64,000 nucleotides of DNA from the NCBI RefSeq assembly GCF_900115755.1, contig NZ_FOXQ01000010.1, positions 62,001 to 126,000 on the forward strand. Direction: 5' to 3'. A program made the translations under genes and the position numbers. The notes below the pieces were generated by a model. It was not told the DNA's origin. It saw only the letters and a list, made by a program, of their open reading frames with translations, and ran no database searches. Shown piece by piece: positions 9,336 through 27,213 of the stretch (the stretch's first letter is position 1; each line of letters starts with the position of its first letter). The DNA comes from Parafilimonas terrae. GTDB lineage: Bacteria > Bacteroidota > Bacteroidia > Chitinophagales > Chitinophagaceae.

Positions 9336-10940
9336 TTACCAGAATCGCCAATAGATATAACACCAGGCAAGTGCATATAAAGCCAGCCATAATTTAATCT
9401 GCTTCCACCATGGCCGTTGCGTTCCCTTATCATCAAGATTTTTAACCCAGGACCACTTCCACAAAAAACGATCTATCTCTTTTAAATCGGGAGGAGTTGT
9501 TTTTAGGGAGACAATTATTATCAGTAACATTGTTAGTACTTCTGCAATAGCACCGGCATATAACCAGTGAAGTTTTATATCTGCAGCCAGCAGAAAAGCG
9601 CCTAATACTATTTGAATGATTACGCCGCCTGTTAATCCGGCAACAGCGCCTGCATAGCTGGTGCGTTTCCAGAATATACCCATCAGCAATACCGAAATAA
9701 ATGGCGTAGCCATATACGTAACGCCGGTTTGAAAATATTTAAAGAGGCCAATGCTTCCCACCAGCGGGGCCAGGAGGGCAGATATGATCAACGCAGCGCC
9801 GCCCGATAACTGCCCGGTAGCAATCAGCTTTTTATCACTGGCGTTCTTATTAATAAATTTCTTATAAACATCTAAAGAAAAAATTGTGGCAATTGAATTA
9901 GACAAGGAGCTTATGCTGGCCATAACCGCTGCAAAAAAACCAGCCAAAATAACCCCCTTTAACCCCGACGGTGCAAAAAGCTGAAGCGCCAGCGGAAAAG
10001 CCCTGTCCTGGTTATCAGGCAACAAAGACGGGCCATTATGTAACACTTCCAGCCAATGATAAAGAATAAGGCCCACAAGACAGGTTACCAATGGGCGGAC
10101 AATATTAATAAAGCCGGAAAATATCAGTCCCATTACGCCATCCCACCGGCTCCGCGCTGAAAGTATGCGCTGTATCATTACCTGGTTGGAAGATTGGTAA
10201 AATAAAAACACGCCAAATGTTGCAAGGATCAGGCCTGCAAATGGCGCTTCCGGGTCGGAAGCAGGCTGGTAGAGATGGAACCGTTCAGGCGCTGCAGCAA
10301 CCATTGCATCCCATCCGCCGGGAATATGGCGTAAGGCCACAAAATAAAATATTATGCCGCCACCAATGAGCATGATGCATTGAATGGCATCCGTCCACAT
10401 TACAGAACTGAGGCCACCGGCAAGCGTATAACTGGCTGTAATGATTATGATGCCTGCCATCACATATCCCTGGTTCCACCCGGTTAATTCACTCAACGTG
10501 ATACTTCCTCCATAAATAACCGGCGGAAGAAAAACGAATACATATCCGATTAATATAACAAAGCTATAGATGGCACCGCAGGCCGGGCCAAAACGGCGGT
10601 TCAGCAATTCCGGTACGGTCATAATTTTATTGCGCAGGTACAGGGGTATAAAGAAAATCATCGTCAATAAATAAGTTGGTAAGGCCCACCATTCCCAGTT
10701 GGCGATACCCAGCCCGCCTTTATAGGCAGCGCCTATCGTTCCCACAATCTGTTCGCTTGAAATGGAAGTAGATACAAACGCAGCGCCAATAAGATACCAG
10801 GGCATATTGCCGGATGCCAGGAAATAACCCGCAGCCGTTCTTTTCACCTTTCGCGCTGCTAAAAAACCAATGATGACAACTAAAAGAATCTCGGCAATTA
10901 TGATCAAAACATCAAGTGCGGAGAGATGAAAATTTTCCAT
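9336..10940 (-). CDS. sodium:solute symporter (SSS family)
   Basis: Inner-membrane Na+-coupled transporter of 534 residues with about 13-14 hydrophobic segments. Family hallmarks are AAFVSTSISSEQIVGTIGAAYKGG (about 52-75) and the GGLSSVMWTDAIQCIMLIGGG segment (about 174-194), which matches the SSS signature. FFAAVMASISSLSNS near 337-351 contributes to the Na2 site. It is the last gene of the eight-gene operon and probably imports the sugar or sugar acid that the upstream enzymes degrade. The substrate of this SSS subgroup cannot be told from sequence. Confidence 0.9.
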   Translation of the reverse strand: MENFHLSALDVLIIIAEILLVVIIGFLAARKVKRTAAGYFLASGNMPWYLIGAAFVSTSISSEQIVGTIGAAYKGGLGIANWEWWALPTYLLTMIFFIPLYLRNKIMTVPELLNRRFGPACGAIYSFVILIGYVFVFLPPVIYGGSITLSELTGWNQGYVMAGIIIITASYTLAGGLSSVMWTDAIQCIMLIGGGIIFYFVALRHIPGGWDAMVAAAPERFHLYQPASDPEAPFAGLILATFGVFLFYQSSNQVMIQRILSARSRWDGVMGLIFSGFINIVRPLVTCLVGLILYHWLEVLHNGPSLLPDNQDRAFPLALQLFAPSGLKGVILAGFFAAVMASISSLSNSIATIFSLDVYKKFINKNASDKKLIATGQLSGGAALIISALLAPLVGSIGLFKYFQTGVTYMATPFISVLLMGIFWKRTSYAGAVAGLTGGVIIQIVLGAFLLAADIKLHWLYAGAIAEVLTMLLIIIVSLKTTPPDLKEIDRFLWKWSWVKNLDDKGTQRPWWKQIKLWLALYALAWCYIYWRFW

Positions 10941-10979
10941 AATAATGCTGCTGCAATTGTGATTGAATGCTGCCTGGTT

Positions 10980-11759
10980 TTATCTTGATTTAAATTTCCA
11001 GTGTTGCCTGTGAGTCACCGAGCCTCCCGGGGCCACTAAAAACCTTTCGCTAAGTGTTTCCAGCTCTGCCCAACCCGGGCAAACAAATATTTCCGTATTG
11101 GATCCTTTATCAACACATAATTCCGCGGTAGTTATATCAGGACTGCTTACAGTGAATTTGCCTTGCTGGCTTATCGCTGTTAATTCAGGAGAAACGCTGT
11201 GCCAGCCTGCCTTTCCCCTGAAATTCCCGTCCTCCACTTTTATTTTACCATCATCCAGCTTCCATTTTGAAGCATCTGTGCCGGGCCAGAAATTAATGGC
11301 CTTTGTTGTACAGGAACCAGATAATTTACAGGAACGCGGCACACAGGTGATGGCCCATAAAGCACCCTCCCACTCCCTTACTCCTGCGTTAAAAAGAACA
11401 TGATCTATATAAAAACCACCCTGCGATGCTTCACTGATTACAAGTGAAAGCACCAACCCATTTGGCCGTTGTTTTGCTGATATGTGTACCGATGTGCCCT
11501 CAAGCCTTACTTCACACGGATCATTGTCGGGATGATAACTTTCGTCATTTTCGGGCGCTGTGGTAAACCTGTGCCCGCCATACATATACCACGCTCCCAC
11601 GCTGAAGCCGGTATGATCTTCATATAAAATATTTTCCCCGCCATTATGCGTAAATGAAAGTATTCTCGGGCCAACAGCAACTCCTATTGCTAAAGTATTT
11701 TGACCTGCAATACATTGCACGGCATCGTTGCTTTTCCATCGCTCAAAGCTTACATTCAT
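10980..11759 (-). CDS. DUF4380-like, mutarotase-fold protein
   Basis: A 259-residue cytoplasmic protein. The N-terminal half has GVAVGPRILSFTHNGGENIL and YMYGGHRFTTAPE, which follow the galactose-mutarotase-like fold of DUF4380 proteins. The GGHRFTTAPE segment carries the likely sugar-contacting His and Glu. Its start overlaps the stop of the PIG-L gene by 4 bp (ATGA, 11756-11759), showing translational coupling. A role as sugar epimerase or sugar-binding protein in this catabolic operon is inference; no DUF4380 activity is established. Confidence 0.7.
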   Translation of the reverse strand: MNVSFERWKSNDAVQCIAGQNTLAIGVAVGPRILSFTHNGGENILYEDHTGFSVGAWYMYGGHRFTTAPENDESYHPDNDPCEVRLEGTSVHISAKQRPNGLVLSLVISEASQGGFYIDHVLFNAGVREWEGALWAITCVPRSCKLSGSCTTKAINFWPGTDASKWKLDDGKIKVEDGNFRGKAGWHSVSPELTAISQQGKFTVSSPDITTAELCVDKGSNTEIFVCPGWAELETLSERFLVAPGGSVTHRQHWKFKSR

Positions 11760-12463
11760 GGTAATATTCTGCTTGTAAGCCCGCGTTGAAAAGCATCAAG
11801 CCTGGTAAACGCTTCTGCATAACGGCAACCAGCGGCCATTCCGCGAAACCGTGCCTGCACTTCAATCATATCAAACAGGTTAGTATCTGCTAAATCTTTC
11901 ATGGCTTCAAACTGGCTTTTATGGCAGGCAAGCATTTGTTTTTTCAGTTCAAATACATCCGAAATATCTACATACTCCGCAGGTGAAAAACCAATGCCGC
12001 CAAGATTATCCATATAATATACCCGGGCTTTGCCAAACCTGCATGCCGGCATTTGCTGATTGGGTATATGCGGAAGGCCTTTTTGGAAATAAGCGTCAAA
12101 CACTAATTGTGATACATAACGGTGATCAGGATGATAGTCATTAGGGGAATGCGTGAAGATAATGTCAGGATCAGCCTTCCTTAAAATATCAATCATCTTT
12201 ATTCTTTGCGCTGCATCAGGAAAAACATGCTCATCTATTACATCGCCCCAAACAAGATTTGCGCCGATAAGGTCCGCAGCCGCCCTGGCTTCCTTTGCAC
12301 GTATATTTTTTAAAACAGCCGGTTCAATAACTGCATCACCCATACTTCCATCTGTGAAGATGGCTATAGTAACGGCATGCCCCGCCTGTATATAGCGGAT
12401 AAGCGTGCCTGCACAAAGTATTTCCGTATCATCCGGATGAGCAACTATACAAAGTATATTCAT
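11756..12463 (-). CDS. PIG-L family zinc deacetylase
   Basis: The 235-residue protein begins MNILCIVAHPDDTEI, the PIG-L/LmbE signature. His9, Asp12 and His114 (HSPNDYHPDHR) are the expected zinc ligands, and Asp11 is the likely general base. The family removes acyl groups from N-acetylated sugars, including GlcNAc-type and mycothiol or bacillithiol precursors. No signal peptide is present, so it acts inside the cell. Its presence suggests that the glycan degraded by PUL1 carries acetylated sugars. It lies 14 bp after the RraA-like gene and is coupled to the next gene. Confidence 0.88.
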   Translation of the reverse strand: MNILCIVAHPDDTEILCAGTLIRYIQAGHAVTIAIFTDGSMGDAVIEPAVLKNIRAKEARAAADLIGANLVWGDVIDEHVFPDAAQRIKMIDILRKADPDIIFTHSPNDYHPDHRYVSQLVFDAYFQKGLPHIPNQQMPACRFGKARVYYMDNLGGIGFSPAEYVDISDVFELKKQMLACHKSQFEAMKDLADTNLFDMIEVQARFRGMAAGCRYAEAFTRLDAFQRGLTSRILP

Positions 12464-12477
12464 AAAAAATTCAATTA

Positions 12478-13161
12478 TTAAAGCACGCCATAACGGTCAT
12501 ACACAACACGTAGAGAATCTCCGTTTAAAAGGTCCCTGCGTGATTCATTTTCCTTAAACACCTTTTCATGCGCCAGTTCCAGCACTTTATCTTCAACCTC
12601 GTTAGGAATAACCACTACGCCATCAAAATCTGAAAATATCAACTCGCCCGGTTTTACAATAACGTCGCCGCAACGCACCGGTACATCATACGCCATTACA
12701 CGGCCACGGCCGAGGCTATCGAGCGGACGGATGCCGCCGCAAAATATAGGGAATTCCATTTCCATTATTCTTCTGCAATCCCTTATCATGCTATCGCATA
12801 TACAACCCACTGCGCCGTTGCGTTTGGCAATTGTGCTCATCAGTTCTCCCCATGGGGCATTGGTGCCTGCAAAATCCGTGGAATGCACAACAACATCGCC
12901 TTTTTTAAGAGAATCTACAGCTTCAATCTCCAAACCATAAGGATCCTCATATTCAATATAATCGGTTTCCATCCAGCGGTAGGTTCTTGCCCTGCCAACA
13001 ATAGTGCAATTATCGGCGTCAAGTGGCCTTAACCGCTGGTGCATGGCCTGGCTTCTATATCCCAGTATATCTAATACATCGCAAACAATTGCCACATACA
13101 GGTTGTCCTTAATCCACCTGAATTTTTCTTCGTCACTGGCAAGTTTGAATTCTGTCATCAT
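12478..13161 (-). CDS. RraA-family protein, probable class II pyruvate-type aldolase
   Basis: The 227-residue protein has the RraA/HMG-CHA aldolase core: a GELMSTIAKRNGAVGCICDSMIRD segment with Arg127 and Asp128, which in characterised aldolases contact the pyruvate carboxylate and Mg2+. FCGGIRPLDSLGRG and GDVIVKPGELIFSDFDGVVVIP follow. True RraA (RNase E inhibitor) is about 160 residues. The longer length and sugar-acid operon context favour an aldolase that cleaves a 2-keto-3-deoxy acid, or a related oxaloacetate decarboxylase. ATGs at 13161 and 13158 are both possible starts. The substrate is unknown. Confidence 0.82.
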   Translation of the reverse strand: MMTEFKLASDEEKFRWIKDNLYVAIVCDVLDILGYRSQAMHQRLRPLDADNCTIVGRARTYRWMETDYIEYEDPYGLEIEAVDSLKKGDVVVHSTDFAGTNAPWGELMSTIAKRNGAVGCICDSMIRDCRRIMEMEFPIFCGGIRPLDSLGRGRVMAYDVPVRCGDVIVKPGELIFSDFDGVVVIPNEVEDKVLELAHEKVFKENESRRDLLNGDSLRVVYDRYGVL

Positions 13162-13202
13162 GATTTGTTGATTTTGGTAGTTCTTTTAATTGTAATTTTT
13201 TA

Positions 13203-13970
13203 TTAAATATCCCAGGTAAACGGTTTAAAATGTTTAGGAATAACGGGTTTGCTCAATAATCTGTGATGATGGCAAAACCATTCAAACACTTCCGGATTTT
13301 CAGCGTTCAGCGGCATAAGGTCATAATGATTGGGCATTACATAGCCGGGGCTCACTGCCTTTGCAAACAATACAGCTTCTTCAGCATTGGTGTTTTTCCA
13401 TTTACCGTTTATGGGAACCAGCATAACATCGGGTTTTGAAGGCGCCGCGTCCAGTACCAATGGGTGAAACTGTGTATCGCTGGTGTGATACACAGTTCTG
13501 CCATTTGAAAACTCAATAAGATACCCGGTGGTGTCAATCACATCTTTCCCGGTAGGTAATGCGAATACGCCCGTTACAGTAACCGAATCAACGGTAACAC
13601 TTTCACCTGCATTTACCACGAGAATACGTTCTTCCGGCACACCTAAGCCGGGCAGCTTTTTTGCCGCTAACCTGGGCGCTATAAACCATGTTTCAGTTTT
13701 ACGGGGATAAGCCCTGATGGTGACCGGATCAAGATGATCAAGATGGTCATGCGTAATAATATATACATCTGCATTTAATGATTCAGGCAATAGTGGCGCT
13801 GCAAAAGCACGGGAAAAACCGGCAACTCCCCCGCTGGCACTGTCAGATAAGTACGGATCGATAACAATAATTTTTCCGCCTGATTTTAAAATATACCCGG
13901 CCTGCCCCAGCCACCATAAAGCCGCTTCGGAAGGTTGCAACAAATAATCCGTAATTATTTTCATCTCCAT
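13203..13970 (-). CDS. metallo-beta-lactamase fold hydrolase, UlaG-like
   Basis: The 255-residue cytoplasmic protein carries THDHLDHLD at 73-81, with His74, His76, Asp78 and His79 as metal ligands. Downstream are HTSDTQFH near 163-170 and the late PNHYDLMP motif. This pattern fits UlaG-type lactonases (L-ascorbate-6-phosphate lactonase family) rather than beta-lactamases or RNases. In this operon a sugar-lactone hydrolase would fit directly after the dehydrogenase. It starts 3 bp after the MR/MLE stop codon, so the two are tightly cotranslated. Confidence 0.82.
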   Translation of the reverse strand: MEMKIITDYLLQPSEAALWWLGQAGYILKSGGKIIVIDPYLSDSASGGVAGFSRAFAAPLLPESLNADVYIITHDHLDHLDPVTIRAYPRKTETWFIAPRLAAKKLPGLGVPEERILVVNAGESVTVDSVTVTGVFALPTGKDVIDTTGYLIEFSNGRTVYHTSDTQFHPLVLDAAPSKPDVMLVPINGKWKNTNAEEAVLFAKAVSPGYVMPNHYDLMPLNAENPEVFEWFCHHHRLLSKPVIPKHFKPFTWDI

Positions 13971-13973
13971 GCC

Positions 13974-15125
13974 TTACAGGTTTATACAAAACCGTTTTAC
14001 TGCTTTTTCGTCAATATCAATTCCCAAACCAGGGCCTTGCGGCACCGGGATATATCCATCTGCATCCAACTGTACCGGGTTGCGGATGATTTCACGCAAC
14101 ATTGGATTATCGCTTACGTTGTATTCAAGAAATAGCGACCTCGGTAAAACAGCATTGAGATGAAGGCTTGCTGCCGTAAGCAAATCAGTCAGCCATGCGT
14201 GGGGACAAACGTCAATACCTGCATATTCAGCTTCCCACATAATCTTTCTTGCCTGGGTAAACCCACCGCACCTTGAAAGATCAGGTTGCACCACATCTAC
14301 GCCACCTTCCGCAATTAATTGCCTGAACCCCCAGGCTGTAGCCTCCTGCTCGCCTGCGGCAATGCGCGTTTTAACGCCTGCATCCTTTACCTTCCTATAT
14401 CCTGTGTATAATTCAGGATGCAAAAAATCTTCCAACCAGTAAATGTTATAAGGTTCCAGCAGGCGGCAAAGTTCAATGGCGTCGTACGCACTCCGGTTCA
14501 CCATCCAGCCGGCATCCACCATTAAAGCTATGTCAGGGCCAAGCGTTTTTCTTGCTGTTTCCACCAGTTTTATATCGAGCTTTCTGTCCTGCCCAAATAC
14601 GCCCCATCCAAACTTTACCGCCTTAAACCCGCGCTGCATATAAAATTCACAGGCATGCCGGATAGCATCAGTGGTTGGACGAAAAAGTGTGGAAGCATAG
14701 GCTTGCACTTTATCTCTTCTTCCTCCACCCAGTATTTTATGTACAGGTTTGCCAATGGCTTTGCCAATGATATCATGGCAGGCAATGTCAAAGCCTGACA
14801 AAACCTGCATGGCAACGCCCCTTCTCCCAAAATAAATAGTGCCCCGGTAAATTTTATCCCATAAACGCTCCACATCAAAAGGGTCTTCGCCTGTTACCAA
14901 TTCCTTCAGCCCTTCAAACATGCCTATCCCGCTTTCCGGTGCATTCACCACGGCTTCACCCACATGTGGTGATGTCTCAACATCCGACCATCCTGTAATG
15001 CCTTCATCTGTACTTACTTTAAGCAAAAGACAATGCTTTACGCCACGCGCCTCCTCGCTGCCCGCCGGGTTCGTGATCTCAAAAGGAGACTGAAGAATAA
15101 ACGGTTCTACATTTGTTATTTTCAT
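13974..15125 (-). CDS. enolase-superfamily MR/MLE enzyme, probable sugar-acid dehydratase
   Basis: The 383-residue protein has the full catalytic set of the mandelate racemase branch. Lys168 and Lys171 (FKAVKFGWG) end the second barrel strand. The Mg2+ ligands are Asp204 (LMVDAGW), Glu232 (YWLEDF) and Glu259 (AAGEQ). The base dyad is Asp282 (QPDLSRCGG) and His309 (CPHAWLTD). Acid-sugar dehydratases of this group turn aldonates into 2-keto-3-deoxyaldonates. Neighbouring dehydrogenase, lactonase-like and aldolase-like genes support that role. Epimerase activity is the main alternative. Confidence 0.85.
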   Translation of the reverse strand: MKITNVEPFILQSPFEITNPAGSEEARGVKHCLLLKVSTDEGITGWSDVETSPHVGEAVVNAPESGIGMFEGLKELVTGEDPFDVERLWDKIYRGTIYFGRRGVAMQVLSGFDIACHDIIGKAIGKPVHKILGGGRRDKVQAYASTLFRPTTDAIRHACEFYMQRGFKAVKFGWGVFGQDRKLDIKLVETARKTLGPDIALMVDAGWMVNRSAYDAIELCRLLEPYNIYWLEDFLHPELYTGYRKVKDAGVKTRIAAGEQEATAWGFRQLIAEGGVDVVQPDLSRCGGFTQARKIMWEAEYAGIDVCPHAWLTDLLTAASLHLNAVLPRSLFLEYNVSDNPMLREIIRNPVQLDADGYIPVPQGPGLGIDIDEKAVKRFCINL

Positions 15126-15144
15126 CTATCTATATCTTAACAGT

Positions 15145-16140
15145 TCAATTAAATACCAACGCAACTTTTAATGCTTTATCATGCCCGTTACTGGCAAGAT
15201 CAAAAGCTTCTTTCCAATCATTAAATGCTATTTCGTGTGTAACAATATTTTCCAGTTGGAGTGATGCATCGCAAATACATGCCAGTGCGTCATCTATCTT
15301 ATGCTCATCATTGCAGGCGCCGGCTATTTCCAGTTCACGCACATGAACACTAAAAAGATCCAGAGAAACCGGTTGGTGAACTGAGCTAAAAATCACCATT
15401 CTCCCACGGGGGCGTAAGGCTTTCATACAGGTATTTATAGCTTCTGCATTTCCCACGGCCAGGATGGCGATATCTGCAACCCTGTCCGGAACGGCAGTAA
15501 GTATTTCTGCACCAGGTATCATTTGCAGGCGGAACGGTGTGCGCCCGTTAACCAATACCCGCTGTGCGCCGGCCCTTTTTGCAAGCCGTGCGATAATATT
15601 CCCAAAAGGCCCGTCACCCACAATGAGCGCTGTTTTATCTTTCATATCGCCAGCACGGGAAACTGCTTCCAGGCAAACGGCTACAGGTTCCAATAAAGCA
15701 CCCACGGCAAAAGGAATATCCTCAGGAATTTTCCTTACCCTGTCTTCACGCTGCAAAAAATATTGAGCAAAACAACCATCGCGGTCTATTCCAAAATGAC
15801 CCATATTTGAGCACAAATGCCCCAGGCCACGCATACATTCTTCACAAACACCACAGGGAACAACGGGATGGACGGCGACCCTGTTCCCAAGTTTCAATTC
15901 TTTAACACCGGCGCCACACTGAACAATTATACCCGCACCCTCATGGCCCATTACACGGGGATATTGTATTCCAAAAGGGTTGCTACTAATATCATGGAGA
16001 TCCGATGTACATATTGTGGCAGCTTTTGTTTGAATCAATACTTCATTCTCTTTAGGCACGGGAACAGGAAGCGTTACCTGCACCAGTTGATCTATACCCT
16101 GCAATTGCAGCGCCTGCATATATGGTGGAATTGTGTTCAC
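15145..16140 (-). CDS. zinc-dependent MDR alcohol/sugar dehydrogenase
   Basis: The 331-residue protein is a medium-chain dehydrogenase. Cys44 and His66-Glu67 (GHEGAG) are the catalytic-zinc site, and Cys96, 99, 102 and 110 form the structural-zinc loop. A Rossmann segment follows (ALIVGDGPFGNIIARLAKRAG). Relatives oxidise polyols or sugars such as sorbitol, L-threonine or L-galactose/L-fucose. It starts with GTG at 16140 in a GTGA overlap with the amidohydrolase stop; an internal ATG at 16119 is an alternative. It most likely does the first oxidation in the operon's pathway. Confidence 0.88.
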   Translation of the reverse strand: MNTIPPYMQALQLQGIDQLVQVTLPVPVPKENEVLIQTKAATICTSDLHDISSNPFGIQYPRVMGHEGAGIIVQCGAGVKELKLGNRVAVHPVVPCGVCEECMRGLGHLCSNMGHFGIDRDGCFAQYFLQREDRVRKIPEDIPFAVGALLEPVAVCLEAVSRAGDMKDKTALIVGDGPFGNIIARLAKRAGAQRVLVNGRTPFRLQMIPGAEILTAVPDRVADIAILAVGNAEAINTCMKALRPRGRMVIFSSVHQPVSLDLFSVHVRELEIAGACNDEHKIDDALACICDASLQLENIVTHEIAFNDWKEAFDLASNGHDKALKVALVFN

Positions 16141-16994
16141 TTTTTTAAAGGATTAGGCAGGTTGAGTAAATGCAATGCATCACGGTGAATAATTTCTTCT
16201 ATTACGTCCGCAGGCACTTCGGGTAAACCGCTTCTGCCGGTAACATTGTTTAGTGCCCGTACCTGTGTTATTGAATCACCGGTTGTTGTAAAAGGAAAAT
16301 CGGAACCAAACAATACTTTATGTTGCGCTTTATATTCAACCAATAACCGCATGGAATTATAAAATTGCCAGGGGCGGTAATAAAGTGCAGAAATATCCGC
16401 ATACACATGAGCATGCCTGCGTATCACGGCAATCGTCTCTCCTTCCCAGGGATGGCCAAGATGTGCCAGCACCATGCGCAGTTCAGGGAAATCTATCGCC
16501 ACAGCATCAAAATGAACAGGGCGGGAATAATCCAAAGGCGTACCGCTTACAAAGGAAGTTCCTGTATGAAAAAGTATGGGCAACCCATGCTGCTGGCAGT
16601 AATGATATATTTCATAACACCTTTTATCCTGCGGGTGCACATTTTGATATAAGGGTGAGAGCTTTACGCCAACAGCGCCCAATTGCTGATGACAGCTTTG
16701 CAATTCTTCCATAAAATTGTCGCACAGCGGATCAATGGATGCAAAAAACAACAACCTTTCAGGCGCTTTTGCCACATGCCCGGCCACCATATTATTGGGA
16801 ATATTCCAGCCTGTTGCCGAGGCCTGCAAACCAAACACTACGGCCACATCTGCAGCTTTAGTTGTTTCCAGATGCCTTTCTTCCACATTGCCCCACACAT
16901 CCGGGTTAACACTGCATCTTTCCAGGTCGGCATTGAGCTTTGGCCCGAAATGATGCGCAGCATTAAAAACATGTGTATGTATATCAATAATCAT
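16137..16994 (-). CDS. amidohydrolase-superfamily (COG2159-type) metal-dependent hydrolase
   Basis: TIM-barrel amidohydrolase of 285 residues. Metal ligands are placed at His6 and His8 (DIHTHVF), His143 (LFHTGTS), His178 (LAHLGHP) and Asp232 (LFGSDFPF). No signal peptide, so it is cytoplasmic. This branch holds decarboxylases and hydrolases; the related COG3618 group holds sugar lactonases, and lactone hydrolysis would fit this operon. It is the first gene of the tight catabolic block, and its stop overlaps the dehydrogenase start by 4 bp. Which of lactonase or decarboxylase it is cannot be decided by eye. Confidence 0.78.
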   Translation of the reverse strand: MIIDIHTHVFNAAHHFGPKLNADLERCSVNPDVWGNVEERHLETTKAADVAVVFGLQASATGWNIPNNMVAGHVAKAPERLLFFASIDPLCDNFMEELQSCHQQLGAVGVKLSPLYQNVHPQDKRCYEIYHYCQQHGLPILFHTGTSFVSGTPLDYSRPVHFDAVAIDFPELRMVLAHLGHPWEGETIAVIRRHAHVYADISALYYRPWQFYNSMRLLVEYKAQHKVLFGSDFPFTTTGDSITQVRALNNVTGRSGLPEVPADVIEEIIHRDALHLLNLPNPLKK

Positions 16995-17071: not shown

Positions 17072-18451
17072 CTACTCAAACGACCAGTAATGCACACCCC
17101 AGGGTTCAAACTTCACGTCGATGGTTTGCGTACCTTTTTTTAGTTTGATAAACGGGTCTGGCCGCAGCCGCTGGTTTTCTTCCAGGCCTGATCCTGATGC
17201 ATCCAGCACAATATGGCGAACCTGCATATCTTTTGGCATATCATCAAGGCTAAGCTTAACCGTTACCGGCTGATCCGAAAAATTCCAGAGCACCAGGTTA
17301 TGCATCAGCATTTTTGTGTCGTGTGCAGCAAAGCCGTGTACTTTATCGTTATCAGAGCTAACGGCAACCCTGTTTCCGCCCAGCCTTGACAATAATTTGA
17401 ATGTATAGTAGGCCGGGCGCAACTGGTTTTGATAATCAATCAACCCGCTGAACTGCGCCTGCCGGTTCCACCAGCGCGTCATAAATGCCGTGCCGTGAGG
17501 TGAGAAAAATCTTGAGAATGTATCAAACGACACATACCAGTCGCGGATATGATAATAACACGACCAGTCAAGGCCCGCATCTTTCATTTGCCAGATTGTT
17601 TCAGCCACATAACAGGGCTGGAACCTGGGATCCAGAGGTGGGTTAAACAGATCCATGTTCCATTCATCCATGATCACTTCCGGTTTCAGCCCGGGATATT
17701 GGCTGATAAGATTTTTTACATATTCTATCTGGCCCCGTATAACAGTTGGGCTGTTGTTATAATGATGAAAAGAAACAAAATGCAGTGGCAGTTTTTCTGC
17801 TGAACAAACGCGCAGCAGTTCGGGTAAAATCGGTGATTTATACCAGGCCAGTGCAGGGCCGCCCACTTTGGCTTTGGGGTCTGCACGAAGGATGGCAGCA
17901 ACTGTATGTTTGTAATACCTGGCGTAACTCTCCGGCTTAAAACGATAGGGCGTACCGCCATCTTCACCTATATCCACTTCATTTCCCACTTCCCAGTAAG
18001 TAATGCCCGCTCCTTTATCCAGGTAATGTTTTACTACGTCATATACAAATTGTTCCCAGCCTGCATAGTCATTGGGCTCAACAATATCGTGATCTACCAC
18101 CGGGAAAAACTGTTTGGGTTTTAAACAAAAACTCATAAATGGTTTGGCGCCGGTTTGAAGGATATTAGACACCATGCTGTCGAGCGTAGCAAAATGATAT
18201 TTTCCGGGTTCCGGGATAACATCATAATATTCACTCACAAATATTCTTATAATGCCGGGATGTAAAGCCCTTATTTCCGTTACCCGGCTGGCCAACATTG
18301 GTTCTTCGGAGAGCCCGCCCTGGCCTAAAGCCATTTGCTCCATTTTCATGGGGCCGAGTTCTTTGTCAAACTCCACTTTTACATTAGTAACCTGTGCATG
18401 TAATTGCACACTAATCAAAATGTAAACAATGATATTTTTTATTTTAAGCAT
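17072..18451 (-). CDS. secreted GH39-type glycoside hydrolase
   Basis: A signal peptide (MLKIKNIIVYILISVQLHAQ) is followed by a clan GH-A barrel. Glu158 in YWEVGNEVD is the expected acid/base and Glu263 in VIMDEWN the nucleophile. After residue about 370 comes a beta-sandwich domain. Length (459) and motif spacing suit GH39, whose members are beta-xylosidases and alpha-L-iduronidases. It lies 27 bp after the large hydrolase gene in PUL1 and likely acts in the periplasm. Related GH-A families are possible because assignment rests on motifs. Confidence 0.75.
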   Translation of the reverse strand: MLKIKNIIVYILISVQLHAQVTNVKVEFDKELGPMKMEQMALGQGGLSEEPMLASRVTEIRALHPGIIRIFVSEYYDVIPEPGKYHFATLDSMVSNILQTGAKPFMSFCLKPKQFFPVVDHDIVEPNDYAGWEQFVYDVVKHYLDKGAGITYWEVGNEVDIGEDGGTPYRFKPESYARYYKHTVAAILRADPKAKVGGPALAWYKSPILPELLRVCSAEKLPLHFVSFHHYNNSPTVIRGQIEYVKNLISQYPGLKPEVIMDEWNMDLFNPPLDPRFQPCYVAETIWQMKDAGLDWSCYYHIRDWYVSFDTFSRFFSPHGTAFMTRWWNRQAQFSGLIDYQNQLRPAYYTFKLLSRLGGNRVAVSSDNDKVHGFAAHDTKMLMHNLVLWNFSDQPVTVKLSLDDMPKDMQVRHIVLDASGSGLEENQRLRPDPFIKLKKGTQTIDVKFEPWGVHYWSFE

Positions 18452-18478: not shown

Positions 18479-21307
18479 TTAATATTTTGCCGTGATATTA
18501 TATTTTCCTGCCGGTGCAGGAATGCTGATATATTCCTTTTTAATATCAAAATTCGTCCAACGCTTTCCGTTTACCATTACAGATTTGATTTGTTTTCCCA
18601 ATGGATGGCGAAAGCGGATAATCAACTGTTTTGGCGGATTGCGTTCCGGCGTTTCAAGCGTTGCTTTGATTTCGTTTTCCTTGTTCAAACCTTCTATTAA
18701 AAATGATATTTTACCGAAATAAGTAGGCGCATCTTTCACGTCTATTTTCTTTCCTTCTTCCAGCCATTGCCGGGGTATTGCCTGGCCAATCATAAGCGTA
18801 TCATTGCCCAACTCATTCAATAACATTTTCCGGTAAATTTCAAACCAGGCGCCGTCTGTGCTTGGAGGGCCGTAATATTGTCCCCATGCCCAGCGATGTT
18901 CAAGCGACGTAAATTGTTCGTGGGAAAACCCACAGGCCATCAAACTATAAAATGCACGTATCACAGCCTTAACATCATCCCTTAAAAAATACGGGGCTGC
19001 CTGCTGCACATACACCGGCTCGTTCGCAGCGCCCTGGTTTTTCAGGAACAAGTTATCTTCATTATCATGCAGCATGGCCGTAGTTAACCAACTATTTGCA
19101 TCAAATACACCAAGACGTGATAAATGCAAAGGGCCGCAATCAACGTCTGTTGGGTACCATTGTTCCATCATGCGGCGCGGGGTAAGCGCATCTGTGGGCA
19201 CATAATTAATCCAGGTGCCATCGGCGAGTCGTACCACAGGGGATTTAACGCTGCTTCTTGAGAATTCCTTTACTACTGATGCTTTTAATTCATCTGCAAT
19301 TTTAGCTGTTTCATCAGCCCGCGGATGCCCGTATAATGCCAGCGCCCTCGCAAACATTTCAAGCCCGCCAACATAATACGCCTGTGTGAAAGCCCATTCT
19401 CTTTCGGCATTGGTTAAGTCATTGAGCGGCGCTAAGATCAGCCCGTTTTTACCGGAACCTTCTTTTGCTTTATTTACCTGCGATATACACCAGTCAAGCG
19501 TTTTAAGTGAATTGGGCAGAAGCTGATCAAACAATTCTTTATTACCAGACAACAAAAAATTTTGCGCAATAGCATATAACTGGCCGGGAGAATATACACC
19601 CCAGTTGGCAAAACCGCCTATCCTGCCATCAGGCTGTTGCTGGCTTTTAAACATGGCGGCGTATTCTTCCTGCGCCGTTGTATCATAACCACGTAAACCA
19701 TAAATCATATAATCCACATAAACTGCCTGGTTAATGGGCCAGTCAGCATTTCTTTGCCCATAAGCCGTGTTGGCGTAAGGCAAATCCATGTGCGGTTTTC
19801 CATCTATATCCAATGTGTGCCGCGGCAGGATGAGTGCATGCCAGAGATTGGCGCGACATAAGTCATTAACGGCTTCTTCGGGTACCTTAAACTGTGCCCC
19901 TTTTGCGAGCCAGTTTTCCCAATAAGCAATTGTTTTATGTTTTTCCGCTGCATAATCCAGGTTATACAATCTCGTTAATCCAGACGGGGCAATAGCAGGA
20001 GAAGGCAGCTTGACTATAAACTCAGCATTTCCCGCTTCTGAAAGCAGGCCTGAAACAGTTAAGGTAAGTTGCTGCCCATTATCGGCAGTTACAGGATTTT
20101 TAGGCGTAACAGTTATATCTTTTCCTGCATCGAGCACTAAAAGAATACTGCCGTTTTGCTTATCTGCAATAATCCATTTACCTGCATCTTGTATTGCCTC
20201 AATATCATGGCTTTTTAATTCATTGCTTAGTGATATATTAAAATTGAATGGCCCGGGTTTTCCTGATATTTTTACCCGGCTATATATCAAACTCGGAATG
20301 TAACCGCGTATAGTGGTTGAGAGATCAGCCAGCGGCCCGGCAAACTGTTCTATCGTGGCTTGCTGCCCATTCTTTTCAAGTGCAGTAACAATAACCGGAA
20401 GTCCGTCACTGATTTTCTGGCCTTTCCACCTGCTTTCAGGCCATGTAAGATCAAGCCTGAACTTGTGCGGGGACGCAAAATCGGGCCGTACATTACCCCA
20501 ACGGTCGATAGCAAATTTATATATTGATCCTGCTGCCGCTGCCGTTACAGTAAGATGGCCGCGGGTGCCCATCCATTGTGTTTGCCAGGATACGTCCCAT
20601 TGGTATGGATTGCCAATATCCGGCCATAACCGGTTAAAAGTTTCTCTTGAAGCATCTGGTTGTTTTGCCACTTCATCCAGCACCCTGCTTCCTTTTAAAG
20701 AAGCAAGATGTTTTTTGAAATCAACAGGTTTATTCGCCAGGGTTATATAAACATCCTGTTCCGGCAGCCACATAGCACCATGTTTTAGCAGTTGCTCCAA
20801 TGCGATGGTAAAACCTGCAGTGCTGTCATCATTCAGGCGTATGGTAAGTAAAGGTGCGTCGGGCCTGAACCATGAATCATCTTTTAAACTTGCCGACTGT
20901 CCCGGAGAACCGTTTTCCATCAGATAGCCCCACATGGCATCATCTTTCAGCGTATAGGAATCTTTATGCCCGGCCAATTTTCTTAAAGGTGCTGAAGGTT
21001 TGATATAATTTATATCCGCAACCAGTTCGTCCACATCACCTGCGCCGCAGTTAAGCATAGCCGAAGCCGCACTTAAGCGATCATTTTTTTCTGTTTGCCT
21101 GCCTGATACTTCTGAAACAATAACACCGGAAGAGCCACTTACCAATTGTACAAAACGTGCATTGCGCACCGAAGCTTTATGCCCCAGCGAAAGTTTTACC
21201 TGTATTCTTTCCGTACTACCTAACTGTGGCTGTGCTGCACCAGCCAGGCAGGTAACCAACCCCCATACTGTAATAACTCCGGTTATAAAACGCGTTGTTC
21301 TTTTCAT
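18479..21307 (-). CDS. large secreted putative (alpha/alpha)6 glycoside hydrolase
   Basis: The 942-residue protein has an N-terminal signal sequence (about 1-25) and a beta-rich N-terminal half (about 26-460). A helical toroid follows, with PHMDLPYANTAYGQRNADWPINQAVYVDYMIYG near 505-537, aromatic and acidic repeats typical of six-hairpin glycosidases, and EHRWAWGQYYGPPSTDGAWFEIYR near 805-828. It ends in a short beta domain (VMVNGKRW...). This overall plan recalls GH63/GH78/GH95-like enzymes, but I cannot assign a family. It sits between susD and the GH39 gene, so it should cleave the PUL1 glycan. Confidence 0.65.
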   Translation of the reverse strand: MKRTTRFITGVITVWGLVTCLAGAAQPQLGSTERIQVKLSLGHKASVRNARFVQLVSGSSGVIVSEVSGRQTEKNDRLSAASAMLNCGAGDVDELVADINYIKPSAPLRKLAGHKDSYTLKDDAMWGYLMENGSPGQSASLKDDSWFRPDAPLLTIRLNDDSTAGFTIALEQLLKHGAMWLPEQDVYITLANKPVDFKKHLASLKGSRVLDEVAKQPDASRETFNRLWPDIGNPYQWDVSWQTQWMGTRGHLTVTAAAAGSIYKFAIDRWGNVRPDFASPHKFRLDLTWPESRWKGQKISDGLPVIVTALEKNGQQATIEQFAGPLADLSTTIRGYIPSLIYSRVKISGKPGPFNFNISLSNELKSHDIEAIQDAGKWIIADKQNGSILLVLDAGKDITVTPKNPVTADNGQQLTLTVSGLLSEAGNAEFIVKLPSPAIAPSGLTRLYNLDYAAEKHKTIAYWENWLAKGAQFKVPEEAVNDLCRANLWHALILPRHTLDIDGKPHMDLPYANTAYGQRNADWPINQAVYVDYMIYGLRGYDTTAQEEYAAMFKSQQQPDGRIGGFANWGVYSPGQLYAIAQNFLLSGNKELFDQLLPNSLKTLDWCISQVNKAKEGSGKNGLILAPLNDLTNAEREWAFTQAYYVGGLEMFARALALYGHPRADETAKIADELKASVVKEFSRSSVKSPVVRLADGTWINYVPTDALTPRRMMEQWYPTDVDCGPLHLSRLGVFDANSWLTTAMLHDNEDNLFLKNQGAANEPVYVQQAAPYFLRDDVKAVIRAFYSLMACGFSHEQFTSLEHRWAWGQYYGPPSTDGAWFEIYRKMLLNELGNDTLMIGQAIPRQWLEEGKKIDVKDAPTYFGKISFLIEGLNKENEIKATLETPERNPPKQLIIRFRHPLGKQIKSVMVNGKRWTNFDIKKEYISIPAPAGKYNITAKY

Positions 21308-21362: not shown

Positions 21363-22997
21363 TTAATAATTGGGATTTTGTTCCAGGTTAGGATTTTTAT
21401 CAATTGCCGATTGCGGAATAGGAAGTACATAATTCTTTGCAGGATCAAAAACTTTTGCGCCGCCGCCGGCCGGAACAACCGTATAAACTGTATTTCCGCC
21501 AACTATATCAATTTTTATAGCATGCACTGTTCCGTTAAGTTTTGTTTCTGCAAGCTTAAGCCTTAATAAATCCGGTAATCTTTTTTCTTCAAAAGCAAGC
21601 TCCACCCTCCTTTCACGGGCAATTACCTTACGCATTTCTTCCTTGTTTAAGCCGGTTTGAATATCCGGCAGGTTTGAGCGGTTTCTTACGGCGTTAATAG
21701 CATCATATACAGATTGATCAGGACCGGCGGCTTCGTTTTTGGCTTCCGCATAGCTAAGCAATACTTCCGCATAGCGGAAAATGATCCAGTTAGCGCTGTT
21801 GCCATTATCCTGTGCGCCTGCATATTTCGGGTTTACGCCTTTAATAACATAATAGCCTGTTCTTGTTGATATGCTGCTGTTATTTAAATCTGTTGCATTC
21901 AGGCTGCCTACACCCTGTTTCATGATCATGGTAGCGCCCAGCCAAACGGATTCATCGTATATGATGGACTGGTAAAAGCGGTTTTCACGGTTTTCATAAG
22001 GATGCTGCGCATCATAACCTGAAGCCGGATCGGTAATAGGCAGTCCGTTAGCCATGGCATATTCATCCACCAGGTCTTGAGTAGGATCCACATGCCCCCA
22101 TCCTGTAAGAGAGCCATTTACAAAACGCGGCCCTATCTGCCCGATATAATTCGCGAGGGAAGTACCACCGAGATGCTGGCGGCTGAATATCACTTCCTGG
22201 TTATTATTGTTGTCTTCATAAAAAAGTGTTGAATAGTCAGGGAATAAACTGTATTTATTCAGGTCTATTACTTTTTTATATGTGGCTGCAGCCTGCTCCC
22301 AGCGGGATAAATCGTTTGAAGGGTTTTTTAACGGGCTTGCATTAAACAGCTCTGTATAACCTTCAAGCGTAAGCGCTGCGCCTCTCGTTGCCCTTCCGGA
22401 TTCAGCATCTACCGGTAAGTCACCCGCAATGGCCGCACATTCAGAGATGATAAAGCCAGCGGTTTCTTCGGAAGTATTTCTCGAACGGAATACTGCATCT
22501 CCCTGCTCGTTAATATTCAATACATCGGTAATGATGGGCACACCGCCATGATACGTCCATAACAGAGAATAGAAATAAGCCCTCAGAAAACGCGCTTCTG
22601 CCAGCCTTGTTTTTTTCCAGTCTTCGGGCAATGATGAAGCCGTAACTTTTTCTATGAACAAATTGCATTTGCGGATGTTAGCGTACTGTCCCCATTTGTT
22701 GGGCGTATTGGCCGGGGTATAAATTCCGGGCCCGTAAATATTTGTGCTTGTGCGGCCTGCCTGCCCGTTGAGGGAATTATCTGAAAAATTCTCCCAGGGG
22801 TCGCTCACGTCCAGCGTAGGTACGGCCGCATAGATATTGTTCAGGAATAAATCTGCATTATCTGAAGTTGCCCATAATGTTGCATCTGAAACCTGCTGTT
22901 TGGGTACCACTTCAAGGTATCGTTTGCAGGAGCTTATCAAAACAGATGATGAAATGATAATGATGCCAAATGCTATTTTAAAAAATTGCTTATTCAT
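21363..22997 (-). CDS. SusD/RagB-family glycan-binding lipoprotein
   Basis: Surface lipoprotein that captures oligosaccharide and caps the SusC pore. From the ATG at 22997 it has a type II signal peptide ending LISSC (lipobox); a longer frame from 23087 would hide it. TPR-like helices near KTRLAEARFLRAYFYSLLWTYHGGVPI and the C-terminal PIPQSAIDKNPNLEQNPNY are classic SusD features. Length about 544. It starts 17 bp after susC and should be cotranscribed with it. Confidence 0.95.
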   Translation of the reverse strand: MNKQFFKIAFGIIIISSSVLISSCKRYLEVVPKQQVSDATLWATSDNADLFLNNIYAAVPTLDVSDPWENFSDNSLNGQAGRTSTNIYGPGIYTPANTPNKWGQYANIRKCNLFIEKVTASSLPEDWKKTRLAEARFLRAYFYSLLWTYHGGVPIITDVLNINEQGDAVFRSRNTSEETAGFIISECAAIAGDLPVDAESGRATRGAALTLEGYTELFNASPLKNPSNDLSRWEQAAATYKKVIDLNKYSLFPDYSTLFYEDNNNNQEVIFSRQHLGGTSLANYIGQIGPRFVNGSLTGWGHVDPTQDLVDEYAMANGLPITDPASGYDAQHPYENRENRFYQSIIYDESVWLGATMIMKQGVGSLNATDLNNSSISTRTGYYVIKGVNPKYAGAQDNGNSANWIIFRYAEVLLSYAEAKNEAAGPDQSVYDAINAVRNRSNLPDIQTGLNKEEMRKVIARERRVELAFEEKRLPDLLRLKLAETKLNGTVHAIKIDIVGGNTVYTVVPAGGGAKVFDPAKNYVLPIPQSAIDKNPNLEQNPNY

Positions 22998-23014
22998 AAT
23001 GTTTGGTTTGCCGG

Positions 23015-26000
23015 TTAAAAAGTAATGTTCATACCTATTGAAATTGCCTTCTGGTTTGGATAGCCCCAGCTTCCGTTGGGTATCCATGAATTGTTGGGGC
23101 CAATTTCCGGATCGTAATTCATCAGTTTTGTCCAGGTTAAAATATTCTGTCCTGATAAATAAATCCTGGCAGACTGAAGCTTGATCCTGCTCATTACCGA
23201 AGCCGGTATTGTATAAGATAATGTAGCGCTTTTCAGCCGCAGGTAATTTGCATTCCCCATCCAGAAAGAAGATGTTTGAGAGTTATTAACGGTTGGAGAA
23301 GATGTAAGCCTTGGGAATTTAGCGTTGGTATTTTCCGGCGTCCAGTAATCAAAATCCTGTACGTACGGAAGCATGGTTTCCCAGAACGGCATAATAGTAG
23401 AGCCATGATAGTACCAGTCAACTTTTGCCGCACCCTGGAACAATAATTCCAGCCCAAAACCTTTATAGCGAACGGCAGGCGCAAACCCATAAACAATGCC
23501 CGGCACGGCTGTTGGGTTACCAATTACGGTTAAGTCATCATTATCAATCTTCCCGTCCTTGTTCATATCTTCATACCGGATGTCGCCGGGCTGAACTGCG
23601 CCCCAGGGTTGTGTTGCAATACCGGATTTTAAATTACCATCCGCATCAAAATCATCAGCCTGGAAATAACCTAAAGCATGAAAACCAAATTGCGTTCCGA
23701 GCGGCCTTCCGGTAACCCGGCGATTGGGATTATTATAGGTGGTAGGCGTTTCAAAAACCTGGAGCAATTTATTTTTTGCATAAGTCATATTGGCCGATAA
23801 AGACACACTCAGGTCTTTTGAAAATTCATGCACGGACCCGATGGTAAAATCAAAACCCTGGTTTGACATGATGCCTGCATTAACCTGGCTAAGTCCTACG
23901 CCGTATTCAGCCGGTACAATTACATCGGGGCTTACAAGCATGTTAGACCTTTTTTCATGAAAATAATCGAACTCAACATTCAGTAACCCTTTCCATAAAT
24001 TCACTTCCAGGCCAATATCCGTTTTTCTTGCCCGCTCCCAGGTAATGTTAGGATTAGGTTCTGCACTTTCGCTGATGCCTTGCACCGCATTGCCGCCCAA
24101 AACATAATTTGTACCCAACACATTATATATACTCATGTATTGAAACGGACTTCCTGCCAAAGCCCCTACTTCACCATAAGAGCCTCTTATTTTCAGGTTG
24201 TCAAGCCAGTTAAATTTATCCTTCAGGAATTTTTCTTCAGACAAACGCCAGCCCACCGAAAATGCAGGGAAGAAACCCCATCTTTTATCCGGTGCGAAAT
24301 AGTAGCTTCCATCATAACGGCCACTTGCTTCCAGCAAATATTTCTGCGCATAATTGTAAGCCACCCTGTACACCAGCCCTTCCTGTCTTGCAGCGCTGGA
24401 GGCGCCGCCTGTGGTCATATCCGCAGCACTGGAACTGCCCATATTAATCTCATCAACCGTGAGATTAAAATTTCTGCGGGAGGCTGCAAGACTTACCAGG
24501 TCGTTGCCTTTTGCTTCAAATAAACCCAATACTGAAACATTATGCTGTCCGAATGAATGGTCATAGTTCAGGCCAACCTGGTAAGTAAGCTGTGTAGCAT
24601 AATCAATATTTTGACTGAGCGAAGGCTTTGTCTGGCCCCAAATACCATCTGTAATCACATAAGGTGTTTGCGATTTATCAAGGCTTGCCTTGTGCACCGG
24701 CAAAGTCCATAGTTTATTCATGGCATAAGAAGGGTCGAATGCGATGGTACCTTTTGCTTTTAAGCCTGGTATAAAAGGTAATTTCTGTTCAACGGAAAGT
24801 TGCGTATAAAGCGCATTGGTAAGAATTTTTTGATACCCGCTGTTAAACAAGCTGCCGGTAAGAAAAGTTCCGGGCATTCCATTGCTGAAACGCAGTGGCC
24901 CGTACAATGGGTGCAAATAACCAATGAGCTCAAAAATGCGGCCCGTGGAAACCGCGGGATACATATTTTTCTGGTTTCGCCCGTTTACATTTAATGATAC
25001 ATTGGTAGTGGATGTTACCTGCGCATCTAAATTAAGCACGAGATTAAACCGGCGGGTATTGGTGGCTGGCCACATGCCTTCCTGGTACTGGTAACCCAAT
25101 GCTGCATAATATTTCACTCTTTCCGAACCACCGGAAATTTCAACATTATGCTGTGTCAGCAAGGCATTTTTATTGGTGATCATACCCCATATATCTTTAA
25201 AAGTAGGATAAGCATCAGGGTCTGAGCCATCCTGGAATTTCTGCAGTTCTTCGGCGGAATATGGCTCGGGTAAGCCTTCATTTACAGCGGCTGCATTTCT
25301 CAACGTGGCATATTGGTAGGAGTTTACAAATTTTGGTAATACAACCGGGTTTTGAGAACCCACATAACCATTATACGTGAGAGAAGGCGCACCTGATTTT
25401 CCCCTTTTAGTGGTAACCAGTATTACACCATTGGCGCCGGCAACACCATAGGGCGCAACAGCAGCGGCATCTTTTAATACTGTAAAGGATTCTATAGTGT
25501 TGGGATCAAGTTGCTGGAAAGTTCTTGGTATGCCATCAACAATAAGCAAAGGCTGGTTAGACCCTGTAGAGGACAGGCCCCTTATATAAATATTGGAGCC
25601 ATCCCTGCCCGGCTCACCGGACCCCTGTTTGAAAATAACACCGGATACCCTGCCGCCCAATCCATTACTTAAATTGGCAATGGGCACAGAGGCAATTTCT
25701 TTTCCACGCATGGTTGATACGGCAGCCGTTAGGGAAGTCTTCTTCTGTGTTCCATATCCTACCACTACCACATCGCTCAGCACATTTCCTGCCGAAGCAA
25801 TAAGGTTAATGGAGATATGGTCCCCGTTGCCCACTTTTACGTTTTGTGTTTCAAAACCTGTGTGAGAAACTACAAGTGTTTGCCCGCGTGAAACAGACAG
25901 TGTGAACTCACCGGCTTCGTTGGTAACCGTGCCCTGCTGCGTTTCCCTTACCATAACAGAAACATCCGCCAGGGCTGCTTCGCCATCAGTAACTTTACCG

Positions 26001-26349: not shown

Positions 26350-27213
26350 ATGAAGCCGCATTACAAACCAATTCCATCAGAATCAAAGCTGTTTAAGGTT
26401 GAATTTCAGAAAACAAGCCAGGAGTTTTATTATCCCTGGCATTACCATGCCGAGCTTGAATTAACTTTTATATTAAGCGGCCAGGGTGTGCGATATGTGG
26501 GTAATTCCATTGAAAATTTTCATGGGGAAGAACTGGTGCTGCTTGGCTCAAACCTGCCGCATGTATGGACAGAACAGGATGAGCCGGTAACTGCGATTGT
26601 AATTTACCTGAAGGAAGATTTTTTTGATAAAAACTGGATGCACAGTATTGAATTTGAAAGCATCAGGAACCTGTCTGTATTAATGAATAAGGGAATAAAA
26701 GTTGACCCGGAAGTAGCTTCGGCACTTAAGCTGAAATTCTATGAACTGCTTAATGCATCGCCATTTGAAAAATTGATGATTTTGCTGCAGGTGCTTGAGT
26801 ATCTTTCCCATAATCACAAATCCAGGTTTTTATGCGGGCAGGAGTTTACGTTTGACCTGGATGACACGGACAAAACACGCATCAACTGCGTTTATGACTA
26901 CATTCAGAAAAACTATCAGCGCCAGGTATCCCTGGCAGATATTGCTTCAAGATTAAATATGAGCGAAGAATATTTCTCCCGTTATTTCAGCAAAACAATG
27001 AAAAAACCCTTCTTCGAATTTTTGAATGAATATAAAATCAACAGGGCTTGCAAATTGCTTATTGAAACAGATAAACAGATCAGCGAAATATGTTATGCTT
27101 CCGGGTTTGAAAGCATCCCCTTTTTTTACAGGCAGTTTAAGAAATTTAAAGATTGCCAGCCTAAAGCTTATCGCATAAACTTTCAGAAGGTGCTAATGTA
27201 CCAGCCGGTATGA
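26350..27213 (+). CDS. AraC-family transcriptional regulator of PUL1
   Basis: The 287-residue protein joins an N-terminal cupin-like sensor (about 20-110, FYYPWHYHAELELTFILSGQG) to a C-terminal double helix-turn-helix (about 185-280: VSLADIASRLNMSEEYFSRYFSKTMKKPFFEFLNEYKINRACKLL, then ISEICYASGFESIPFFYRQFKKF). Family members bind a small sugar through the cupin and direct repeats through the HTH pair. Its position divergent from susC, with three phased direct repeats between, makes it the likely activator of PUL1 and perhaps of the downstream catabolic operon. Confidence 0.9.
   Translation: MKPHYKPIPSESKLFKVEFQKTSQEFYYPWHYHAELELTFILSGQGVRYVGNSIENFHGEELVLLGSNLPHVWTEQDEPVTAIVIYLKEDFFDKNWMHSIEFESIRNLSVLMNKGIKVDPEVASALKLKFYELLNASPFEKLMILLQVLEYLSHNHKSRFLCGQEFTFDLDDTDKTRINCVYDYIQKNYQRQVSLADIASRLNMSEEYFSRYFSKTMKKPFFEFLNEYKINRACKLLIETDKQISEICYASGFESIPFFYRQFKKFKDCQPKAYRINFQKVLMYQPV

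Follow-up and report, generated by a model that had tools for sequence, protein, structure and literature searches.

The window analysed here is a stretch of 64,000 nucleotides of contig NZ_FOXQ01000010.1 from Parafilimonas terrae (Bacteroidota, Chitinophagaceae), and it contains a run of twelve minus-strand genes that extends from a gene for a SusC-like transporter (26110) down to one for an SSF-family symporter (9336). The terminal eight genes, preceded by those for SusC, SusD, a protein of 942 residues (BIG) and a GH39-family enzyme, constitute the cassette that is the subject of this study. They encode, in order of transcription: AHY, an Amidohydro_2 TIM-barrel metal hydrolase and candidate lactonase, hydratase or decarboxylase (16137-16994; Pfam 126 bits); MDR, a zinc dehydrogenase of the ketose reductase/threonine/sorbitol dehydrogenase type with a GTG start (15145-16140; ADH_N 94 bits); MR/MLE, an enolase-superfamily protein resembling acid-sugar dehydratases (13974-15125; MR_MLE_C 203 bits); MBL, a UlaG-like hydrolase of the metallo-beta-lactamase fold, a candidate lactonase and an optional member (13203-13970; Lactamase_B_3 68 bits); an RraA-fold enzyme, candidate 2-keto-acid aldolase (12478-13161; RraA-like 117 bits); a PIG-L/LmbE-fold protein, candidate N-deacetylase, although a hydratase precedent exists (11756-12463; PIG-L 96 bits); MUT, a mutarotase-like and likewise optional protein without Pfam match and with one weak NCBIfam mutarotase match (10980-11759; 45.7 bits, cut-off 550); and the sodium:solute symporter SSF (9336-10940; SSF 193 bits). 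The open reading frames (ORFs) were verified as they had been read in the original prediction, which was made from the letters of this DNA, including the 4-bp overlaps at 16137-16140 (AHY/MDR) and 11756-11759 (PIG-L/MUT) and the 3-bp gap at 13971-13973. NCBIfam equivalog cut-offs were reached by none of the eight proteins, the sole cut-off reached being that of a superfamily model (sodium/solute symporter), and no account of such a set of genes came up in searches of an open-access library. Very likely, the gene block imports and breaks down a sugar.

The conservation of the cassette was assessed by scanning genome contigs with the MR/MLE protein, which gave 42 loci: 27 with close orthologs (L009-L035; 71-94% identity) and 15 with remote homologs (L036-L050; 27-35%). 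Counted as matches above 60 bits, the families were present in the 27 ortholog loci as follows: AHY 25, RraA 25, MDR 24, PIG-L 23, SSF 19, MBL 14, GH39 13 (a distant GH39 in two Bacillota loci included), BIG 11 (ten of the type found in the window, and L028) and MUT 10 (L009-L015, L017, L018 and L024); these numbers are lower bounds, since some of the contigs stop partway through the cassette. At E 1e-8, the remote group of 15 loci (four shorter than 7 kb) contained one RraA and one MDR match, and no match to AHY, PIG-L, MBL or SSF. The ortholog loci span four named phyla (Bacteroidota, Verrucomicrobiota, Armatimonadota and Bacillota), with carriers that include Chitinophagaceae, Sphingobacteriaceae, Spirosomataceae, Cytophagaceae, Bacteroidales and metagenome-assembled genomes (MAGs) of Verrucomicrobia, Armatimonadetes and Clostridia; in the Armatimonadetes MAG the only cassette genes on the contig are those for MR/MLE and RraA. 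Agriterribacter humi, Chitinophaga cymbidii and Sphingobacterium chuzhouense are among the carriers in cultivation. Six cassette families co-diverge, as comparison of pairwise distances gave a Mantel rho of 0.78-0.92 and, for each of the 15 pairs, a value as high in 0 of 999 permutations. The exact 4-bp AHY/MDR overlap is repeated in 11 of the 24 loci that have both genes (L009-L013, L016, L018-L020, L022 and L026). The search of gene neighbourhoods that had been proposed for this gene set has returned a recurring unit, and a stronger case than could have been known from the one locus. Since the block turns up again in a number of bacterial groups that are not related, it looks like an uncharacterised catabolic route.

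The composition of the block is not fixed throughout. In L012-L016 and L024-L027 the RraA gene follows within 76 bp after MR/MLE, with no MBL gene between, so that MBL is not obligatory, and on the counts given above both MBL and MUT were rejected as obligatory members. The high identities suggest that the cassette moved between phyla; the MR/MLE tree supports a Bacillota clade and leaves the placement of Verrucomicrobiota and Armatimonadota unresolved, with 12 of 28 inner branches open. The cassette is apparently portable and attached to differing polysaccharide utilisation loci (PULs). Among 147 other relatives an MR/MLE match at E 1e-100 (47% identity) was found in one, G087, of the same family as the window's genome, and its locus (L008) carries a sister cassette: MR/MLE at 45%, RraA at 62%, an SDR in the place of MDR, MFS and EamA transporters, and SusC/SusD. 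Perhaps this represents a related pathway for another sugar. In L009-L011 the otherwise tight operon is interrupted between MDR and MR/MLE by a non-coding stretch of 494-982 bp that contains palindromic GTGCTAAGCG units; such an insertion was rejected for the window, where the MDR-MR/MLE spacing is only 19 bp and the palindrome has 0 matches at up to 3 mismatches. A gene of the histidinol-dehydrogenase family lies within the cassette of L021 (L021:11157-12434), possibly as an extra pathway step; immediately upstream are genes for a carbon-nitrogen hydrolase and for an Amidohydro_1 protein that matches NagA_N.

The active sites of the central enzymes are retained. In MR/MLE, D204, E232 and E259, which we take to be the metal ligands (D/E/E), and D282 and H309, presumably the Asp-His dyad, are kept in at least 95% of 28 rows, with K171-x-G instead of KxK. 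The enolase C-terminal domain, metal ligands and dyad are those of the MR subgroup and not specific to dehydratases: the residues would suit an acid-sugar dehydratase, and equally epimerases and cycloisomerases, so that the "full dehydratase residues" claimed earlier are indeed conserved but not diagnostic. No cut-off of a named isofunctional sugar-acid dehydratase was reached (galactonate dehydratase 200.7 bits against 311; gluconate/galactonate 187.1/750; rhamnonate 162.3/393; arabinonate 162.2/650; mannonate 152/550); the closest models are nonetheless acid-sugar dehydratases, and the nearest PDB entry (3sjn) has a name without specific function. In RraA, E106, R127, D128 and E204 are invariant in 20 of 20 rows, which include 19 of the 25 loci with RraA, and align to D102, R123, D124 and E199 of 3noj, an HMG/CHA aldolase in which Arg-123, Asp-124 and Glu-199 are given as catalytic or metal-binding (PMC5065237). 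The protein carries the catalytic Arg, the adjoining metal Asp and the further metal Glu of pyruvate-type class II aldolases, and aldol activity is predicted on these residues.

The PIG-L protein has both the family profile and the HxDD ... DxxxDH motif of PIG-L/LmbE N-deacetylases, with H9, D11, D12, D109, D113 and H114, to which we ascribe metal roles, invariant in 19 rows. Its profile found diacetylchitobiose deacetylase (116.6 bits) and BshB1 (101.8 bits) in the PDB and, lower, 4-oxalomesaconate hydratase 5cgz (65.0 bits, E 6.6e-17). With the BshB1 model TIGR04001 (cut-off 182.5) it scores 134.9 bits and a separate gene elsewhere in the genome 306.3, and since the latter is the above-cut-off BshB1, the cassette protein was rejected as the housekeeping bacillithiol enzyme. 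Four Bacillota loci have a PIG-L gene upstream of AHY; the encoded proteins are 30-34% identical to that of the window and score higher against it (95-122 bits) than against the BshB1 of the window's genome (38-59 bits); their strict orthology is not settled by the unrooted PIG-L tree. That PIG-L is so often retained, and that its relatives are N-deacetylases, suggests a substrate with an N-acyl group. The acetylated sugar of the original prediction, for which PIG-L is the sole basis, would accordingly have to be read as N-acetyl rather than O-acetyl, because the best solved relatives are N-deacetylases. Of the remaining enzymes, MDR has C44/H66/E67 and C96/C99/C102/C110, presumably with metal roles, invariant in 18 rows. 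Of the two lactonase-type hydrolases predicted earlier, MBL alone is backed by sequence, and weakly: it scored 75.5 bits with an NCBIfam metal-dependent hydrolase model (cut-off 144) and 54.5 bits with the ascorbate-6-P lactonase model (cut-off 306), below the cut-off in both cases. For AHY the seven PDB matches at E 0.01 include a single strong one, the uncharacterized 3irs (E 1e-18), next to weaker ones (E 1e-4 to 0.009), namely 3cjp (predicted amidohydrolase), meta-cleavage hydrolase (two entries), 4-oxalomesaconate hydratase 2gwg (E 0.0026), 5-carboxyvanillate decarboxylase and 3nur (amidohydrolase).

The genes ahead of the cassette have the composition of a PUL, i.e. a SusC/SusD pair beside glycan-active enzymes: the SusC-like TonB-dependent transporter (23015-26110; Plug and CarbopepD_reg_2), the SusD-like lipoprotein (21363-23087; SusD_RagB 205 bits; its ORF start overlaps SusC and the real start probably lies further downstream), BIG (18479-21307), and the GH39-family glycoside hydrolase (17072-18451; Pfam 77 bits, cut-off 26). 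A gene for an AraC-type regulator recognised in the family scan (26350-27213, plus strand) is divergent from SusC and has relatives in L016, L019, L021, L023, L028 and L035 (48-61%) and in the PUL of L020 (57%). The predicted coupling to SusCD, GH39 and an (alpha/alpha)6 protein is supported, and BIG lacks a sequence match in Pfam, NCBIfam or the PDB. AlphaFold2 modelled the whole protein poorly (pLDDT 61, pTM 0.41), and Foldseek related that model to (alpha/alpha)6 phosphorylases and glycosidases (best E 5.8e-10), with TMq at most 0.30 among the 50 matches listed. For residues 440-942, modelled with one more distant row added to the alignment (pLDDT 69, pTM 0.70), the seven best Foldseek matches are rhamnosidases by title or protein name (E 2.1e-7 to 1.1e-5, TMq 0.51-0.57, rmsd 6.8-8.8), among which we assume 8hmm (AoRhaA), 8iwf and 8iwd (Rha-2) to be rhamnosidases, and the next are mainly beta-L-arabinofuranosidases. 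The likeness to alpha-L-rhamnosidases is one of fold in the C-terminal half alone, as no profile of that family matched. D723, E763, E803 and E832 are invariant, even in the 24%-identical protein of L028. The models support assignment of BIG, with its beta-sandwich and (alpha/alpha)6 parts, as a candidate (alpha/alpha)6 glycosidase, perhaps one acting on an L-sugar.

The association of BIG with GH39 and with the cassette takes several forms. In L026 a single ORF that runs to the contig end consists of GH39 (45%, 388 residues) continuing into a BIG-like region (35%, 561 residues), a fusion that links the two proteins. The combination of GH39 with window-type BIG was not found in L019-L023, L028 and L035; BIG-like genes of the L028 type, 50-68% identical to that of L028, occur downstream of SusD in L020 (three) and L023 (four), accompanied by GH43 and phosphodiester-glycosidase (PF09992) genes, and as one gene beside the symporter in L028, so that BIG-like genes are present in three alternative PULs attached to the cassette. 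This type was found in 3 of the 16 searched cassette genomes (L019-L035), with all eight copies on the cassette contig; of 296 genomes sampled from the phylum, none had it. Against a strict link, partial or distant matches were recovered away from cassette genes in G870, the genome of L035 (35% over 168 residues), and likewise in G865, the genome of L024 (31%), the contig having SusC and SusD matches and no cassette gene in the stretch examined. Beside the cassette, the five loci L019-L023 have a gene cluster in common, which is ceramidase-like (PF04734) in L019, the one member tested, and PF09992 genes are found in the PULs of L020, L022 and L023; together these hint at a glycan containing N-acyl or phosphodiester groups. 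A GH129 match beside one Bacillota locus was weak (21.9 bits, cut-off 25.6) and was not used as evidence.

We give a probability of about one half to the reading that the genes form a conserved cassette for the catabolism of a single monosaccharide, or of its acid, that is freed from a glycan by the adjacent PUL, with reactions, an order and a substrate that we infer as follows. SusC/SusD would take glycan fragments into the periplasm, where BIG and GH39 would release the sugar, and SSF would carry it into the cytoplasm; MDR would then oxidise it, a lactone, if formed, would be opened by MBL, by AHY or spontaneously, MR/MLE would eliminate water from the sugar acid, PIG-L would take off the N-acyl group at some stage, and RraA would cleave a 2-keto-3-deoxy acid to an aldehyde and pyruvate, without the action of a kinase. 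That the pathway ends in an RraA 2-keto-acid step is plausible, and the whole is best described as a variant of non-phosphorylative sugar-acid catabolism, with a substrate that is possibly N-acetylated. A more specific form, which we hold to be quite doubtful, is an amino-sugar route: an N-acetylated aldose, released by BIG as a new (alpha/alpha)6 glycosidase family, would be oxidised to a 2-acetamido-aldonate and dehydrated by MR/MLE to an enamide, after which deacetylation by PIG-L and collapse of the enamine would yield ammonia and a 2-keto-3-deoxy acid, from which RraA would form pyruvate. If true, it would replace the PLP (pyridoxal phosphate) deaminase and the kinase of the known oxidative chitin route.

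Several observations weigh against the cassette as a dedicated oxidative route of this kind. The first PDB entries reached with the MDR profile are NADP(H) ketose reductase, threonine dehydrogenase and sorbitol dehydrogenase; these oxidise secondary alcohols, and oxidation at C1 is therefore not indicated. None of the seven AHY matches is named lactonase and three of the names are without specific function; MBL, not found in 13 of the 27 loci, and MUT are optional. The cassette is rare, as none of the 394 further genomes sampled from the phylum has an MR/MLE match at E 1e-130. With either BIG query the genomes of L019, L021 and L022 gave no match, nor was there one in the Bacillota genomes searched (both queries for L027, L029, L031 and L033; the L028-type query only for L030 and L032/L034). 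Window-type BIG occurred in 2 of 395 genomes of the class, the window's own and G489, where the gene (60%) has no cassette gene in the surrounding 19.5 kb. Finally, the last step could differ from aldol cleavage, because Flavobacterium has in FlDet an RraA-family KDGR dehydratase/decarboxylase in a sugar-acid route (PMC8563752). The completeness and the set sequence of steps put forward originally (sugar to lactone to aldonate to keto-deoxy acid to pyruvate) are unsupported or overstated, given the lack of a named lactonase for AHY, the polyol/threonine type of MDR, the loci in which MBL was not found and the ambiguous MR/MLE site; what survives is a likely unassigned catabolic pathway, in the sense of a conserved unit that reaches no equivalog cut-off.

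Other explanations account for part of the same evidence. The substrate could be a neutral (6-deoxy) sugar, for example L-rhamnose, L-fucose or L-galactose; a plain non-phosphorylative pathway for it, by dehydrogenase, lactonase, dehydratase and aldolase and with PIG-L as accessory de-acylase of the imported oligosaccharide, seems rather unlikely to us. Its step classes match the non-phosphorylative L-rhamnose route, which comprises a sugar 1-dehydrogenase, a lactonase, a sugar-acid dehydratase and a keto-deoxy acid aldolase (PMC3870299), and rhamnosidases head the fold matches of BIG's C-terminal half. The survey of L-rhamnose isomerase (RhaA, PF06134), in which L018 was left out and L034 counted with L032 (same genome), is divided: no RhaA was found in the window's genome or in any of the 14 cassette genomes searched from among L009-L023, but 10 of all 25 cassette genomes searched have it (one weak, 27.6 bits), and the window's genome encodes a second type of L-rhamnose-isomerase-like protein (511 bits, cut-off 646.75) and a fucose-isomerase-family protein. 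The cassette as a simple stand-in for L-rhamnose isomerase is for these reasons not supported. Against the neutral sugar also speak the low score of MR/MLE with the L-rhamnonate dehydratase model, the retention of PIG-L in 23 of 27 loci, and the lack of an aldehyde dehydrogenase family among the selected neighbours scanned with Pfam.

Unlikely, in our view, is a hydratase-aldolase branch as in gallate/protocatechuate 4,5-cleavage, in which AHY or PIG-L would hydrate an unsaturated keto acid, RraA would cleave the product, and MR/MLE would act upstream as cycloisomerase or dehydratase. The AHY profile does weakly reach 2gwg and the meta-cleavage hydrolase, that of PIG-L reaches 5cgz, a 4-oxalomesaconate hydratase by name, and HMG/CHA aldolase is among the relatives of RraA; yet PIG-L scores the sugar N-deacetylases higher (116.6 against 65.0 bits), and SusC/SusD, GH39 and BIG indicate a carbohydrate source. 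A grouping by chance, or a loosely assembled operon of mixed genes that share no one pathway, would agree with the variability of two of the eight genes and with the seven Bacillota loci in which SSF was not found; it is extremely improbable, and chance clustering was rejected on the cross-phylum recurrence in 27 loci and the Mantel co-divergence.

As the block is kept from Bacteroidota to Bacillota on different polysaccharide loci, its sugar is probably worth a dedicated route, and solving the cassette would assign the MR/MLE, RraA and PIG-L clades together and help to identify the activity of the as yet unassigned (alpha/alpha)6 protein family. Elsewhere in the window a sigma-54 activator (response regulator and Sigma54_activat; 34787-36751) is present as two same-frame ORFs, of which the first stops at 36251-36253 and the second carries the AAA lid and HTH, and a Glyco_hydro_88 match (39163-40395; 30.1 bits, cut-off 26.6) lies near a long minus-strand gene run.

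The cassette shares features with four known systems. An RraA aldolase and hydratases of the PIG-L and amidohydrolase folds serve in one gallate/protocatechuate 4,5-cleavage route, and by PDB names the same three folds are found here; to our knowledge that route has an aromatic substrate, no PUL and no MR/MLE. With the non-phosphorylative L-rhamnose and L-fucose pathways the cassette has in common the chemistry classes, a central sugar-acid dehydratase-like MR/MLE and the absence of a kinase; it differs in the polyol-type MDR, in AHY without a named lactonase match, in the added PIG-L, in an MR/MLE below every equivalog cut-off, and in having RraA where those pathways usually employ another aldolase. 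The oxidative DEHU route of Flavobacterium likewise has an RraA-family protein (FlDet) acting on a 2-keto-3-deoxy sugar acid, but it is alginate-specific, and the available part of its description mentions no MR/MLE/PIG-L cassette (PMC8563752). The oxidative chitin utilisation of Pseudoalteromonas (ong cluster) resembles our proposal in TonB-dependent uptake, a periplasmic glycosidase, an SSS-family symporter, a cytoplasmic deacetylase and a keto-deoxy acid intermediate (PMC9537276). It uses a deacetylase of the D-aminoacylase fold (PMC12017989), a PLP-type deaminase and KdgK in the places where the cassette has a PIG-L fold, MR/MLE and RraA, and by analogy it shows that an architecture such as the one proposed here is known for an N-acetyl sugar acid.

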